Below, piece by piece: positions 45,944-51,504 of a DNA stretch of 64,000 bases. The stretch covers positions 3,820,859-3,884,858 of the forward strand of contig OX638294.1 of NCBI GenBank assembly GCA_951812325.1. The letters run 5' to 3'. This DNA comes from an uncultured Thermoanaerobaculia bacterium (GTDB taxonomy: Bacteria > Acidobacteriota > Thermoanaerobaculia > Multivoradales > Multivoraceae). Every line of letters begins with the position of its first letter. Position 1 is the first letter of the stretch. Both the position numbers and the translations under genes were made by a program. The notes beneath the pieces are model-generated. The model was not told where the DNA came from. It saw only the letters and a program-made list of their open reading frames with translations, and did not search any database.

Positions 45944-47218
45944 ATGCTCAAGTTCTTTGTCGGCGCAACGATCGCTTTCGCGATGTTCACCAGTCCAGTC
46001 GCTGCACAGTCGCGTCAGGAGGAGGTGGCGGATTCGGCTGCTTTGGGGGCCGACGAAGGATCGCCATTGGCGAGCGTTCGCGATGCTCTGCGTTCAGGCG
46101 GCAGTGGTCCGGAGTTGGTCGTGATTCCGGCTGGCAGCTCTTCTACGGACGGCCCTTGTACGCCGACGTCCGACGTGCTTCAGTTCGACGGCGGCTACAG
46201 GGTTCGCATGTGCTACATCACCGTCGAAGGCCAGACGGGGCAGGCGCGGGCAGGTGTATGGGCTTCCAGTCAATCCGGGATTCTCTGGTTTTTCAGTCGG
46301 GAGAACGCGGAAGTTCTGGTCAAGGTGCTGGACGGTTGCGAGTACAACGGGCACCGATGGGTCTTCGTGGCGCCGGTGACGGACCTCGGCTTCGAACTTC
46401 GGGTCACCGGGCCGGACGGCGACACCTGGACTCATACAAACGAGGCGGGCACGACAGCTCCAACCAGGAGCGATACGAGCGCCTTCAGATGTAGTGGCGC
46501 CGTCGGCGGTGGTCCGGAGTCGGCCGTGATTCCGGCAGGCAGTTTTCAGATGGGCTGTGTGTCGGGAGTGGAGGAGTGCAGGGACAATGAGTTTCCGGTG
46601 CATACGGTGACGATTCCGGCTCCTTTGGCTGTTGGGAAGTACGAGGTGACGTTTTCGGAGTGGGATGCATGCGTGGAGTCTGGCGGTTGCCGTCATGTTC
46701 CGGATGATGAGGGTTGGGGTCGCGGCAATCGTCCTGTGATGCGGGTGAGTTGGGAGGACACGCAGGAGTACGTTGCGTGGCTTTCGGCGGAGACGGGTTT
46801 CGAGTATCGGCTGTTGAGCGAGTCGGAGTGGGAGTACGCTGCTCGGGCAGGCACGCGCACGGCGTACAGTTGGGGCAATGAGATTGGTGATAACCGTGCG
46901 AACTGCGCTGGTTGCGGTAGCCGTTGGGACTTTGAAAGGACGGCGCCTGTGGGTTCGTTTGCTGCAAACGCGTTTGGTTTGCACGACATGCATGGCAACG
47001 TATATGAGTGGGTTGAGGACTGCTGGAACGGGAGCTACGTTGGGGCGCCGTCCGACGGCAGTGCGTGGGAACGTGGGGACTGTTCCAGTCGCGTCTTTCG
47101 GGGCAGTTCCTGGATCAGCCTACCGAGGTACCTCCGCTCCGCGTTCCGCGACTGGGACTGGGCCGGTCTCCGGATCAGCTTCCTCGGCTTCCGCGTTGCC
47201 CGGACGCTCACCCCGTGA
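45944..47218 (+). CDS. Secreted beta-domain plus FGE-fold (SUMF1) protein 1, putative DGR target
   Basis: A 424-residue secreted protein. Signal MLKFFVGATIAFAMFTSPVAAQ; linker; a 115-residue beta-domain (GPCTPTSDVLQFDGG, SGILWFFSRENAEVLVKVLDG, NGHRWVFVAPVTDLGFELRV); then a formylglycine-generating-enzyme/C-type-lectin domain (IPAGSFQMGC, VGKYEVTFSEWDACVESGGC, RLLSESEWEYAARAGT, LHDMHGNVYEWVEDC). The C-terminal RGSSWISLPRYLRSAFRDWD...LGFRVAR is the variable segment. The catalytic Cys pair of true FGEs near this position is absent, so it is probably a ligand-binding protein. It looks like gene 3 with its first FGE domain deleted after VVIPAGS. Confidence 0.85.
   Translation: MLKFFVGATIAFAMFTSPVAAQSRQEEVADSAALGADEGSPLASVRDALRSGGSGPELVVIPAGSSSTDGPCTPTSDVLQFDGGYRVRMCYITVEGQTGQARAGVWASSQSGILWFFSRENAEVLVKVLDGCEYNGHRWVFVAPVTDLGFELRVTGPDGDTWTHTNEAGTTAPTRSDTSAFRCSGAVGGGPESAVIPAGSFQMGCVSGVEECRDNEFPVHTVTIPAPLAVGKYEVTFSEWDACVESGGCRHVPDDEGWGRGNRPVMRVSWEDTQEYVAWLSAETGFEYRLLSESEWEYAARAGTRTAYSWGNEIGDNRANCAGCGSRWDFERTAPVGSFAANAFGLHDMHGNVYEWVEDCWNGSYVGAPSDGSAWERGDCSSRVFRGSSWISLPRYLRSAFRDWDWAGLRISFLGFRVARTLTP
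47099..47212 (+). other. Putative DGR variable region VR-A
   Basis: Framework codons (GGC-AGT-TCC-TGG, CTCCGCTCCGCG, GGCTTCCGCGTTGCC) match the other copies, while the codons between 47114 and 47182 differ. Most compared sites read xxC: ATC, AGC, TAC, TTC, GAC, GAC, CTC, ATC, AGC, TTC. These are what mutating both adenines of AAC would give. Confidence 0.7.
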
Positions 47219-47725
47219 GTCTTTACCTCTTTACCTCCTCCGGGGGGGGGTTCCAAGGGGGCTGGCCCCCTTGGTCCGGCGCCCGGGTTGCCGTCGCTTC
47301 GGCTGTGGCGAAGACGGCATGGCATGCACCACACCGACTGTGGGCATGGTGGTTTCGAGCGAGCGGACCTTCGGGGTGGCCGTTCGCCCGGGGAGCACGA
47401 AGACAACGCAGCGTTCGAGCGGCCTGTGTCCCCTCCTGACCGCGAGCTCATCAGGCAGCACTTTCCACACTGCGTCGAGTCGCCATGACCTGATAGCTCG
47501 GCGCCGGATTGAGGCAGCGACCTCCACATCAATGACGACCATGCCGGAACTGAGGCCAATGTCCATCCACTGATTGGCTATTCGGTTTTGCACTTCGAAA
47601 CTCATGATCGACTTTGAAATAGTGTCTGCGTCGGACAGCTCTGAAAACCGGCAGGCACCGCTTTGCAGGCATCTTGTCAGGATTTACAATTTGATTCGAA
47701 AACCATCACCAAAAGGAGAGGACCT
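47219..47725. other. Gap between FGE-fold genes 1 and 2
   Basis: 507 bp. The left part is the conserved downstream sequence that follows each FGE-fold gene (stem-loop, then GGCTGTGGCGA and ATGGCATGCACCA). The right part, from about 47480, is AT-richer and includes the gene 2 promoter region. A 124-codon minus-strand frame (47231-47605) crosses the stem-loop and is not convincing. I found no template repeat or reverse transcriptase here. Confidence 0.6.
47253..47274. other. Stem-loop downstream of VR-A
   Basis: CCAAGGGGG-CTGG-CCCCCTTGG: perfect 9-bp stem, 4-base loop, 34 bp after the stop codon of gene 1. Equivalents follow genes 2 and 3. DGR target genes commonly carry a short-stem, 4-base-loop hairpin or cruciform just 3' of the variable region that is needed for homing. 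The loop differs from the phage example. It could also serve as a transcription terminator, but no T-run follows. Confidence 0.75.
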
Positions 47726-49318
47726 ATGACTTCGGCGTCCATGATTTACATACGGTTAGTCGCCTTTGGCGTTGCTGCGTTGCTGTCGACGTCAGCTGCG
47801 AGCGCTGCCCTGCTCAATTTCCAGCGCCTGACAAAGGATCGCTTCGTTGTGCGTCAAGCGACAGTGTTCGGGGGAACGAAGAAGGCAAGCAGGATTGCCC
47901 ACAAGAAGGCTGCGTCACTTTGCGTGGCCGCGGGATTCTCCTTTTTAAAGGTCCTCGATTCAAAAGAGGTTGAGTCAGAGGTGGGGGGATGGAAAATGAT
48001 CAACGATATTCCAGTGGCTATCCGCACGAGTGCATCCAGTACGCTCTTGGTGCGATTCAAGCATAGGAACGAGGAAGAGGGGGAAGAAGAACACGAGGAG
48101 GGTTTTGACTGCAAAGAAGACTCCGTGCCGCGCTTTGTTGCGACGGCGAGAAAACGTCTCGAGAGACCGGACGCGTTGCAGTCGCCGGCGGAAACGACGG
48201 CTGTTACGCTGCGTTTTGAGCGGCTGGCGGAGGATCAGTTTGTTGTAGAGCAAGTGAAGAAAGTGGGAGGACGATCCAAGGCAATCAAACGTTTGTTTTC
48301 AAAGGCGTCGTCGCTTTGTATAGCAACTGGACTTTCCTGGCTCGAGGTGCTCGATTTCGACGCGGCGGGCGCAAGGCTGGAGGTGCATTTCAAGCACGAG
48401 AACGAAGGAGAGGTTGAGGATCTGCTAGCCTGCAAGGAGATGTCCGAGCCGCGTTATGTTGAAGTGGCCAAGGAAAAGCTCGATGAGCTGAGCGTGAAGC
48501 CGTCAGTCGCTCCACGGTCGCGTCAGGAAAAGGTGGCGGATTCGGTGGCCTCGGACGCCGACGAAGGATCGGCTTTGCCGAGCGTTCGTGATGCTCTGCA
48601 TTCGGGCGGCAGGGGTCCGGAGTTGGTCGTGATTCCGGCTGGCAGTTTTCAGGCGGGCTGTGTTTCGGGCGTGGCATGTGATCCGACGGAGCTGCCGGTG
48701 CATTCGGTGACGATTCCGGCGCCTCTTGCTGTGGGGAAGTACGAGGTGACGTTTTCGGAGTGGGATGCATGCGTGGAGTCTGGCGGTTGCCGGCATGTTC
48801 CGGATGATGAGGGTTGGGGTCGCGGCAATCGTCCGGTGGTCAACGTGAGTTGGGAGGACACGCAGGAGTACGTTGCCTGGCTTTCGGCAGAGACCGGGTT
48901 CGAGTATCGGCTGTTGAGCGAGTCGGAGTGGGAGTACGGAGCTCGGGCGGGCACGGGTACGGCGTACAGTTGGGGCGATGAGATTGGTGATGACCGTGCG
49001 AACTGCCGTGGTTGCGGTAGCCGTTGGGACGACGTCAAGACGGCGCCTGTCGGTTCGTTTGGTGCGAACGGGTTCGGCTTGCACGACATGCATGGCAACG
49101 TGGAGGAGTGGGTTGAGGACTGCTGGAACGACATCTACGTTGACGCGCCGTCCGACGGCAGCGCCTGGCGGCGCGGTGACTGTTCCGTTCGGGTCCTTCG
49201 GGGGGGTTCCTGGTTCAACGATCCGAGGAACCTTCGCTCCGCGAACCGCTTCTGGCTCAGTCCCGGGGACCGGGACAGCAACCTCGGGTTTCGCGTTGCC
49301 CGGACGCTCACCCCGTGA
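47726..49318 (+). CDS. Secreted duplicated-domain plus FGE-fold protein 2, putative DGR target
   Basis: A 530-residue protein with signal peptide (IYIRLVAFGVAALLSTSAASA). The N-terminal half contains two copies of a roughly 110-residue domain not recognised from known families: LLNFQRLTKDRFVVRQATVFGG...AASLCVAAGFSFLKVLD, and VTLRFERLAEDQFVVEQVKKVGG...SSLCIATGLSWLEVLD. Each ends with a CKE segment. After a linker similar to those of genes 1 and 3 comes the FGE-fold domain (IPAGSFQAGC; RLLSESEWEYGARAGT; LHDMHGNVEEWVEDC) ending RGGSWFNDPRNLRSANRFW...LGFRVAR. AAGGAGAGG precedes ATG 47726. GC content of the N-terminal half is lower than the surroundings, suggesting a separate origin. Confidence 0.85.
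   Translation: MTSASMIYIRLVAFGVAALLSTSAASAALLNFQRLTKDRFVVRQATVFGGTKKASRIAHKKAASLCVAAGFSFLKVLDSKEVESEVGGWKMINDIPVAIRTSASSTLLVRFKHRNEEEGEEEHEEGFDCKEDSVPRFVATARKRLERPDALQSPAETTAVTLRFERLAEDQFVVEQVKKVGGRSKAIKRLFSKASSLCIATGLSWLEVLDFDAAGARLEVHFKHENEGEVEDLLACKEMSEPRYVEVAKEKLDELSVKPSVAPRSRQEKVADSVASDADEGSALPSVRDALHSGGRGPELVVIPAGSFQAGCVSGVACDPTELPVHSVTIPAPLAVGKYEVTFSEWDACVESGGCRHVPDDEGWGRGNRPVVNVSWEDTQEYVAWLSAETGFEYRLLSESEWEYGARAGTGTAYSWGDEIGDDRANCRGCGSRWDDVKTAPVGSFGANGFGLHDMHGNVEEWVEDCWNDIYVDAPSDGSAWRRGDCSVRVLRGGSWFNDPRNLRSANRFWLSPGDRDSNLGFRVARTLTP
49199..49312 (+). other. Putative DGR variable region VR-B
   Basis: Variable codons span 49214-49282. It keeps the most AAC codons (NDPRNLRSANR, DSNLGFR) and so is probably closest to the adenine-rich template. 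Substituted sites are TTC, GAT, TTC, CTC, GAC, GAC, AGC. Confidence 0.7.
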
Positions 49319-49349
49319 GGCTTTACGTCGCGACTTCTTCTTGAAAGTT

Positions 49350-49369
49350 CCAAGAGGCTGGCCCCTTGG
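49350..49369. other. Stem-loop downstream of VR-B
   Basis: CCAAGAGG-CTGG-CCCCTTGG: the same CTGG loop with an 8-bp stem containing one A-C mismatch, 31 bp after the gene 2 stop. Equivalent to the perfect hairpin after gene 1. Confidence 0.7.
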
Positions 49370-49463
49370 TTAAGCGCGCCGGGTTGCAGTCGCTTTCGGC
49401 TGTGGCGAGAATGGGATGGCATGCACCATTACCCACTGTTCAATCCTATTGATCGCATTCAAT

Positions 49464-49482
49464 CACCATGATTGCCATGGTG
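49464..49482. promoter_or_regulatory. CACCATG inverted repeat upstream of FGE-fold gene 3
   Basis: CACCATG-ATTGC-CATGGTG, 18 bp before ATG 49501, with GAAGGAGAAA as ribosome site in between. Near-identical to the element before gene 1. Confidence 0.5.
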
Positions 49483-49500
49483 TGGGAAGGAGAAACGTCC

Positions 49501-51450
49501 ATGTTCAAGTTGTTTGTCGGCGCAACGATCGCCCTTGTGCTTTTTGCCGTTCCAGTCGCTGCACAGTCGGGTCAGCAGGAGGTGGCAGATTCGGCTGCCT
49601 TGCGGGCCGACGAAGGATCGCCCTTGGCGAGCGTTCGTGATGCTCTGCGTTCAGGCGGCGATGGTCCGGAGTTGGTGGTGATTCCTGCTGGCAGTTTTCG
49701 AATGGGCTGTGTGGCGAACTTCAGTTGTGACGACGACGAGTTTCCGGTGCACTGGGTGACCATTTCGGCCGCCTTTGCGGTTGGGAAGTACGAAGTGACG
49801 TTCTCGGAGTGGGATGCATGCGTGGAGTCTGGCGGTTGCCGTCATGTTCCGCGTGATTGGGGTTGGGGTCGCGGCAATCGTCCGGTGATCCTCGTGAGTT
49901 GGGAGCACGCGCAGGAGTACGTTGCCTGGCTCTCGGCGGAGACCGGGTTCGAGTATCGTCTGTTGAGCGAGTCGGAGTGGGAGTACGCGGCTCGGGCGGG
50001 CACGCGCACGGAGTACAGTTGGGGCCGTGAGATTGGTGATAACCGTGCGAACTGCAATGATTGCGGTAGCCCTTGGGACAGCGACAGGACGGCGCCTGTG
50101 GGTTCGTTCGCTGAGAATTCCTTCGGCTTGCACGACATGCATGGCAACGTAGCGGAATGGGTTGAGGACTGCTGGAACGAAAGCTACGTCGGCGCTCCGT
50201 CCGACGGCAGCGCCTGGCGGCAAGGTGACTGTTCCCGTCGCGTAAGTCGGGGCGGTTCCTGGGAGGACTATGACTGGTTCCTCCGCTCCGCGAGCCGCGT
50301 CGGGCCCGGGGCCGGACGCCGGGACAACGATTACGGCTTTCGCGTTGCCCGGAGCGTTGCCCGGACGCTGACGCCGGACGGACCTTGTACGCCAACGTCT
50401 GACGTGCTTCAGTTCCACGGCGGTTACAGTGTTCGCATGTGCTACATCACCGGCGAAGGCGAGACGGGACAGGCACAGGCAGGTGTATGGGCTTCCAGTC
50501 AATCCGGGATTCTCTGGTTCTTCAACCGGGAGAACGCCGAAGTTCTGGTCAAGGTGCTGGACGGTTGCGAGTACAACGGACACCGATGGGTCTTCGTGGC
50601 GCCGGTGACGGACCTCGGCTTCGAGCTTCGGATCACCGGGCCAGACGGCGACACATGGACCCATACAAATCAGGCGGGCACAACAGCGTCAACCAGAAGC
50701 GATACGAGCGCCTTCAGATGTAGTAGCGCCGTCGGCAGTGGTCCGGAGTTGGTTGTGATTCCGGCTGGCAGCTTTTTGATGGGATGTGTGTCGGACGTGA
50801 GGTGTAGGGAAGACGAGTTTCCGGTGCATCGGGTGACGATTCCGGCGCCGTTTGCTGTTGGGAAGTACGAGGTGACGTTTTCGGAGTGGGATGCTTGCGT
50901 GGAGTCTGGCGGTTGCCGGCATGTTCCGGATGATGAGGGTTGGGGTCGAGGCAATCGTCCGGTGGTCAATGTGGATTGGGAGGACGCGCAGGAGTACGTT
51001 TTCTGGCTTTCTGCGGAAACCGGTTTCGAGTATCGGCTGTTGAGCGAGTCGGAGTGGGAGTACGCCGCTCGGGCGGGCACGCGCACGGCGTACAGTTGGG
51101 GCGATGAGATCGGCCGCAACCGTGCGAACTGTTTTAATTGCGGTAGCCGTTGGGACGACGACAGGACGGCGCCTGTGGGTTCGTTTGGTGCGAACCCGTT
51201 CGGTTTGCACGACATGCATGGCAACGTAGACGAGTGGGTTGAGGACTGCTCGAACGACAGCTACGATGGCGCGCCGTCCGACGGCAGCGTTTGGCAGCGC
51301 GATGGCTGTCTTTCTCGCGTCGTTCGGGGCGGTTCCTGGAACGCTTTTCGAGGGTGGCTGCGCTCCGCGAGCCGCTCTCGGGCTTGGAACTGGCCCGGAC
51401 ACCGGGGCGGCTTCCTCGGCTTCCGCGTTGCCCGGGCGCTTACCCCGTGA
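49501..51450 (+). CDS. Secreted FGE - beta-domain - FGE protein 3, putative DGR target
   Basis: A 649-residue protein. Signal MFKLFVGATIALVLFAVPVAAQ; FGE-fold domain C1 (IPAGSFRMGC to RSVARTLTP, about residues 65-300); the beta-domain (GPCTPTSDVLQFHGG, NAEVLVKVLDG, HRWVFVAPVTDLGFELRI); and FGE-fold domain C2 (IPAGSFLMGC to the C-terminus RVVRGGSWNAFRGWLRSASR...LGFRVARALTP). Two C-type-lectin-like heads on one chain is unusual. Only C2 is followed by the stop and stem-loop. C1 ends with a duplicated GTTGCCCGG and runs into the beta-domain, so it may be a frozen former variable region. AAGGAGAAA precedes ATG 49501. Confidence 0.85.
   Translation: MFKLFVGATIALVLFAVPVAAQSGQQEVADSAALRADEGSPLASVRDALRSGGDGPELVVIPAGSFRMGCVANFSCDDDEFPVHWVTISAAFAVGKYEVTFSEWDACVESGGCRHVPRDWGWGRGNRPVILVSWEHAQEYVAWLSAETGFEYRLLSESEWEYAARAGTRTEYSWGREIGDNRANCNDCGSPWDSDRTAPVGSFAENSFGLHDMHGNVAEWVEDCWNESYVGAPSDGSAWRQGDCSRRVSRGGSWEDYDWFLRSASRVGPGAGRRDNDYGFRVARSVARTLTPDGPCTPTSDVLQFHGGYSVRMCYITGEGETGQAQAGVWASSQSGILWFFNRENAEVLVKVLDGCEYNGHRWVFVAPVTDLGFELRITGPDGDTWTHTNQAGTTASTRSDTSAFRCSSAVGSGPELVVIPAGSFLMGCVSDVRCREDEFPVHRVTIPAPFAVGKYEVTFSEWDACVESGGCRHVPDDEGWGRGNRPVVNVDWEDAQEYVFWLSAETGFEYRLLSESEWEYAARAGTRTAYSWGDEIGRNRANCFNCGSRWDDDRTAPVGSFGANPFGLHDMHGNVDEWVEDCSNDSYDGAPSDGSVWQRDGCLSRVVRGGSWNAFRGWLRSASRSRAWNWPGHRGGFLGFRVARALTP
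50248..50370 (+). other. VR-like segment C1 (internal, probably frozen)
   Basis: RGGSWEDYDWFLRSASR...YGFRVAR, variable codons 50263-50334. It keeps the framework but has departures from the xxC pattern (GAG, TGG, GGG) and a framework Leu changed to Tyr. No stop or stem-loop follows, so homing to this copy seems unlikely. Confidence 0.55.
51325..51441 (+). other. Putative DGR variable region VR-C2
   Basis: Variable codons 51340-51414. Sites include AAC, AGC, AAC, CAC, GGC, GGC and TTC at positions where the other copies have other AAC-derived codons. The segment is two codons longer than VR-A and VR-B in the middle. Confidence 0.65.
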
Positions 51451-51481
51451 ATCTTCACGTTTTTGCCTTTCTTGGGAGATT

Positions 51482-51504
51482 CCAAGGGGGCTGGCTTCCT
51501 TTGG
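51482..51504. other. Degenerate stem-loop downstream of VR-C2
   Basis: CCAAGGGGG-CTGG-CTTCCTTTGG, 32 bp after the gene 3 stop. The left arm and loop match gene 1 exactly, the right arm has substitutions, so pairing is weakened to about CCAAGG with CCTTTGG. The 215-bp gap to the acyl-CoA dehydrogenase contains no gene. Confidence 0.6.

Follow-up and report, generated by a model that had tools for sequence, protein, structure and literature searches.

CTGG-loop hairpins behind dispersed DGR target genes in an Acidobacteriota genome: to judge by a sister genome, a gene with a decayed hairpin may be locked in one fixed version

What is known of the homing requirements of diversity-generating retroelements (DGRs) has so far rested mostly on one phage system. 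In BPP-1, a Bordetella phage, a hairpin at the target is required for efficient homing (PMC3240598, Guo et al. 2011), and changing its loop from GAAA to CTTT nearly abolishes the process (PMC3240598). In a rebuilt DGR system, deletion of the hairpin severely impairs repair (PMC12875486). The loops published for DGRs belong to the GRNA tetraloop (PMC3240598) and GRA triloop (PMC4372165) types. As for the distance over which such systems operate, action in trans on remote targets was inferred in Thiohalocapsa PB-PSB1 (PMC10907252).

The window analysed here, a stretch of 64,000 nucleotides, covers 3.82-3.88 Mb of the single-contig 4.63-Mb genome of a Thermoanaerobaculia-related member of the Acidobacteriota; statements about the whole genome rest on pattern and profile searches. 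It contains three sensor-like genes of the FGE fold, each ending in a variable region (VR) and followed by a stem-loop (Table 1). The N-terminus of gene 1, as read from its sequence, resembles a signal peptide; gene 2, whose frame is open from 47663, has an ortholog in the sister genome G016.

Table 1. Features of the target locus, in window coordinates (dG in kcal/mol).
Feature	Position	Strand	Description
Gene 1	45944..47218	+	secreted FGE-sulfatase-fold (C-type-lectin-like) DGR target, 424 aa; PF03781 E=3.8e-55
VR of gene 1	47089..47202	+	20/29 adenines vs 3/85 other bases changed relative to TR1, p=1.4e-12
Spacer element	47220..47237	+	TCTTTACCTCTTTACCTC (repeated TCTTTACC), intact, between gene 1 stop and hairpin 1
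Hairpin 1	47253..47274	+	9-bp stem without mismatch, CTGG loop; predicted to work as a homing hairpin/cruciform
Gene 2	47726..49318	+	DGR target of the FGE fold, N-terminal domain of its own; PF03781 E=8.8e-56
VR of gene 2, frozen variant	49189..49302	+	15/29 adenines vs 6/85 other bases changed relative to TR1
Hairpin 2	49350..49369	+	one A.C mismatch; dG -4.3 (+) / -5.2 (-)
Gene 3	49468..51450	+	two FGE modules in a single frame, 660 aa; PF03781 in two stretches, E=1e-109
Internal VR of gene 3 (module a)	50238..50351	+	19/29 adenines vs 10/85 other bases changed relative to TR1; no hairpin
Terminal VR of gene 3 (module b)	51315..51434	+	22/29 adenines vs 8/85 other bases changed relative to TR1; 6-nt insertion
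Hairpin 3	51482..51504	+	decayed: two G.T pairs and a bulged T; dG -3.7 (+) / -1.8 (-)

Direct reading and refolding recovered the three stem-loops that the initial annotation had described. Hairpin 1, CCAAGGGGG-CTGG-CCCCCTTGG, starts 34 bp past the stop codon of gene 1; hairpin 2, CCAAGAGG-CTGG-CCCCTTGG, starts 31 bp past that of gene 2; and hairpin 3, CCAAGGGGG-CTGG-CTTCCTTTGG, also starts 31 bp past its stop codon, so that of the distances first proposed (34, 31 and 32 bp) only the last needs correcting. The graded decay from a perfect stem to one mismatch to several is likewise correct, with a folding energy of -10.8 kcal/mol for hairpin 1 (DNA folding, both strands alike) and the weaker values of Table 1 for the other two. 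A stem of at least 9 bp arises in only 7 of 3000 dinucleotide shuffles of the 110 nt downstream of gene 1, and copies identical to hairpin 1 are found at other DGR targets in the genome; the fold energy of hairpin 3 is no better than that of shuffles. Three of the original generalizations have to be narrowed. The distance, thought to be fixed, is narrow instead, since it ranges from 23 to 34 bp over the whole family in two genomes. A hairpin does not follow every VR, as no stem lies downstream of the internal VR of gene 3. The CTGG loop, supposed to be constant, is so in this genome and its sister apart from a few variants, but it varies across relatives; a CTTG loop is found in copy L023:6483 and in L149.

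The resemblance to BPP-1 (PMC3240598) lies in a GC-rich stem of 7-10 bp with a short loop just 3' of the VR, the stem sequence being free as long as the structure is kept; here too the stem is present at VRs and absent from the flanks of the template repeats (TRs). The loop has four nucleotides in both systems, but it is GRNA in BPP-1 and CTGG in the window. Given this difference, either the reverse transcriptase (RT) and Avd of the present system tolerate other loops, or the hairpin works differently. The hairpin also stands 39-50 bp from the IMH-like end of the VR, compared with 4-34 bp in the survey of PMC3240598, and, unlike BPP-1, this genome has many dispersed chromosomal targets and an extra TCTTTACC repeat in the spacer. 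Nanoarchaeal DGRs (PMC4372165) similarly carry a short-loop hairpin on the 3' side of the VR. Their GRA-type loops recur as C-GNA-G triloops in many of the relatives found here, whereas the window loop is four nucleotides long, CTGG, and its hairpins lie outside the coding sequence. Closest in genomic layout is Thiohalocapsa PB-PSB1 (PMC10907252), in which several dispersed targets match one TR at non-adenine sites, transposons reshape the loci, and one target has apparently stopped diversifying. That paper gives no reason for the stopped target; the stopped targets here have lost the hairpin, the spacer element or both.

The first reading had deduced a DGR from the target genes alone. Searches for reverse transcriptases and for the target fold led to 2.19-2.21 Mb, 1.67 Mb from the window, where VR genes, avd and RT are arranged in tandem cassettes disrupted by duplications and by a transposase gene, judged from its translation to be of IS3 type. 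The RT is of DGR type: it scores above the RVT_1 cut-off, carries a YVDD motif and the sequence GLPIGNLTSQ, and is present in two full-length copies, RT1 and RT2. Avd reaches 106.7 bits with NF033474 (NCBIfam DivGenRetAVD), whose curated cut-off is 80, and also matches PF22296. Of the two template repeats, TR1 adjoins RT1, and TR2, 98% identical to it, adjoins a truncated RT. The repeats are located at L021:3149-3274 and L021:14509-14634 (- strand), and the open reading frame of RT1 (L021:3104-4483, - strand) continues through TR1 in a frame that differs from that of the VR proteins. With RT, avd and two TRs present elsewhere in the genome, the initial interpretation is supported overall.

TR-to-VR differences are adenine-specific in every one of 12 VRs (p from 1e-3 to 2e-13), and the target proteins have the C-type-lectin/FGE fold (PF03781). 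The four VRs of the window differ from TR1 at 15-22 of its 29 adenines and at 3-10 of its 85 other bases; because they carry this signature, the window genes are DGR targets, 1.67 Mb away from the machinery, and homing would thus take place in trans across that distance. VR position 80 is an adenine in TR2 and a G in TR1, and since several VRs have changed there, a TR2-like template has been used.

How, then, have these targets fared since the window genome and its sister diverged? G016 belongs to the same genus and has orthologous targets, including a colinear 3.7-kb segment with genes 1 and 2 in both genomes; orthology is secure for gene 2, which has a unique N-terminus, and positional for gene 1, in a duplicated family. 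The VR protein of gene 2 is identical in the two genomes (L155 near 10581, - strand), and about a quarter of the residues of its N-terminal domain have diverged. Gene 1, whose hairpin is perfect in both, differs from its counterpart at 17 of the 30 TR2 adenines and at 6 of 84 other sites, compared with 0/30 and 5/84 for gene 2, whose hairpin is broken in both (Fisher p=6e-7 for adenine-site change). From the VR to its end, gene 2 differs at 5 of 43 codons, all synonymous, and in the N-terminal region at 125 of 285; its VR is apparently a fixed, DGR-made variant under purifying selection. Among the other pairs, the hairpin-intact cassette 11164 (L021) and 9175 (L155) differ at 19 of 30 adenine sites. 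One frozen copy goes against this pattern: at genome position 2205471 (L021:15496, identical to its ortholog L156:12808) the hairpin is near-intact, with a 6-nt loop unless a G.T pair closes a 4-nt one, and drift has taken the VR far from the TR. The two-genome comparison shows past rewriting, and it suggests that the gene with the decayed hairpin is locked in one fixed version. On the G016 side the rewriting may be old, as the RT seen there is no more than a truncated one (249 aa, with further fragments).

Measuring variability against hairpin integrity, the check proposed at the outset, gives an answer in the same direction. Mismatches to the TR at sites other than adenine number 0, 1, 2, 2, 3, 4, 6, 7 and 8 in copies with intact stems and 3, 3, 6, 9, 9, 10, 11, 13, 13, 14, 16, 27 and 27 in copies with broken ones (Mann-Whitney p=0.0009 for 22 copies, which are paralogs and not independent). 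Uninterrupted stem length served as the measure in place of fold energy; the energy of the whole 50-nt region is a poor correlate of VR decay (p 0.09), and alternative stems formed by G-runs are the probable reason. Among the 14 copies without insertions the correlation with the stem is weak (rho -0.35, p 0.22), and in copies whose hairpins have decayed moderately (L157, L026) the non-A mismatches are few to moderate in number and the adenine sites differ widely from copy to copy. The claim that decay predicts which copies can still be diversified is supported by the frozen gene 2 and the rewritten gene 1, but the effect of the hairpin itself is confounded, its loss coinciding with loss of TCTTTACC, with insertions and VR divergence and, in some copies, with loss of VR/TR homology. 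We infer that hairpin loss, rather than spacer loss or VR divergence, caused the freezing.

The hairpins are very probably homing hairpins or cruciforms of the DGR at 2.19-2.21 Mb, and copies whose hairpins decay would leave the pool of targets and keep their last variant. TR RNA would be reverse transcribed with errors opposite adenines, and the cDNA would replace the VR in trans at any copy that still has the stem-loop, the TCTTTACC spacer element, VR/TR homology and an IMH-like 3' end of the VR free of adenines (GGCTTCCGCGTTGCCCG). By analogy with phage BPP-1, the hairpin presumably acts as it does there; it would probably extrude in supercoiled or lagging-strand DNA, keeping the target open for the cDNA. 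A copy in which the hairpin, and the spacer with it, decays would drop out, retaining the variant it then held; the prediction for gene 1 is accordingly a live target, for gene 2 a locked variant, and for gene 3 a dead or nearly dead copy.

Evidence on the hairpin also comes from 53 loci with related RTs in Binatota, Nitrospirota, Latescibacterota, Pseudomonadota and others, in 33 of which TR/VR pairs were found. A stem of at least 7 bp lies within 110 nt of the VR end in 20 of these 33 (1.06 expected), and relatives from other phyla have it at about the same place relative to the VR. Stem covariation with a constant loop had been named as a mark of function. The former is strong: in 19 aligned hairpins, double-sided changes affect 9 of 10 stem pairs, with a covariation score of 0.518 against 0.144 +- 0.031 after shuffling; the evidence is this covariation and not the pairing itself, because the hairpins were picked for pairing. 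The loop is not constant, being a C-GNA-G triloop in 14 of 20 relatives and otherwise CGC, CGT, TGT, TCC or AAA, with CTGG in the lineage of the window. Loop types were also compared with RT clades, in numbers too small to establish a link, and some relatives (L069, L061, L083) have adenine-specific VRs and no obvious hairpin. The RT clade G000/L057-L069 (support 100/99) brings together members of the Acidobacteriota, Binatota, Nitrospirota, Latescibacterota and Proteobacteria, which suggests that this DGR has spread horizontally.

The spacer can be followed through the same loci. CTTT[AG]C[CT] occurs within 70 nt of the VR end in 20 of the 33 (1.0 expected, and at most 5 in 2000 shuffles), and by this conservation the TCTTTACC repeat is a second conserved element of the target site. 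Repeated TCTTTACC stands 10-40 nt past the VR end in L057, L059, L061, L062, L069 and others, from several phyla. Only 3 of 396 genomes of the phylum match the composite of spacer and hairpin: the window genome, G016 and the distant G364. The last has an orphan site (G364:C30:79811-79845; L170, L189), TTTACCTC followed by CCAGGGGG-CTGG-CCCCCTGG, downstream of an FGE gene whose C-terminus is DGR-like, and no related RT or TR was found in that genome. In another species of the genus, an FGE gene (L149, G003:C12:1606-2253) is followed by TTCTTTACCTC and a GGGGGG-CTTG-CCCCCC hairpin, and is possibly a further DGR target. The composite TTTACCTC...GGGGGC..GCCCCC has 9 matches in viral contigs, none beside an FGE target and one with a partial RT-like match, and is therefore not specific outside the DGR family of the window. 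No account of the TCTTTACC spacer element was found in a non-exhaustive literature search.

Such a spacer invites another explanation, namely that the hairpin is a passenger of recent whole-cassette duplication and that the IMH and the TCTTTACC spacer are the true homing determinants. In genes 2 and 3 the TCTTTACC repeat and the hairpin have indeed decayed together, and L069 (Latescibacteria) keeps the repeat and clean adenine-specific VRs with no hairpin at all. However, stems covary across phyla at similar distances from the VR, which passive copying does not produce, L024 retains a 9-bp stem despite having lost the spacer element, and BPP-1 genetics show a direct requirement for the stem; we consider the passenger explanation unlikely.

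Lower still stands the idea that the hairpins are intrinsic transcription terminators, kept at the targets since the genes are duplicates. Their position 23-34 bp past the stop codons would suit it, as would the T-rich stretch soon after the stem in 5 of 20 relatives and the TTTTTT that follows the orphan target in G364. Against this, no T-run follows the window hairpins, a terminator scan lists none of them, and in the cassettes the hairpin lies between the VR gene and a co-oriented avd-RT-TR, so that a terminator there would cut off the machinery downstream. Equivalent hairpins after unrelated genes, which would have pointed to ordinary terminators, were absent from the pattern searches of the genome: all 6 GGGGNCTGGNCCCC sites in the 4.63 Mb sit at DGR targets or remnants, all 11 matches of a relaxed hairpin pattern fall at VR genes of the window DGR family or their remnants, and control patterns match 0-1 times genome-wide. 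FGE-fold genes of the same genus that show no sign of DGR targeting (L127-L135) have no hairpin site and are nearly invariant between genomes. With no T-run and with hairpins confined to DGR targets and their remnants, intrinsic termination was rejected as very improbable. The idea that the hairpins are G/C runs arisen by chance or convergence in a GC-rich genome has the frequent G-runs just 5' of the stem in its favour, but it is already refuted by this distribution and by the failure of any of 100 window shuffles to reach three matches, and deserves practically no credence.

Homing hairpins thus remain the preferred reading. Hairpins at DGR targets were already known; what is new in this case is the CTGG loop, the spacer element and the natural freezing experiment. 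More tentatively, and with somewhat less than an even chance of being right, the target site may be bipartite, made of TCTTTACC repeats and the stem-loop, and its loss may be a natural lock that fixes a useful receptor variant, which then comes under purifying selection as in gene 2, while intact paralogs keep exploring. With a dozen dispersed targets at all stages of hairpin decay, and orthologs in a sister genome, the role of the hairpin becomes testable by comparison. Engineering, and the search for the targets of other DGRs, can take concrete leads from the conserved spacer element and the non-GRNA loop. The series of decaying hairpins gives an indication of the targets that are live and a possible answer to the question of why some DGR targets stop diversifying.
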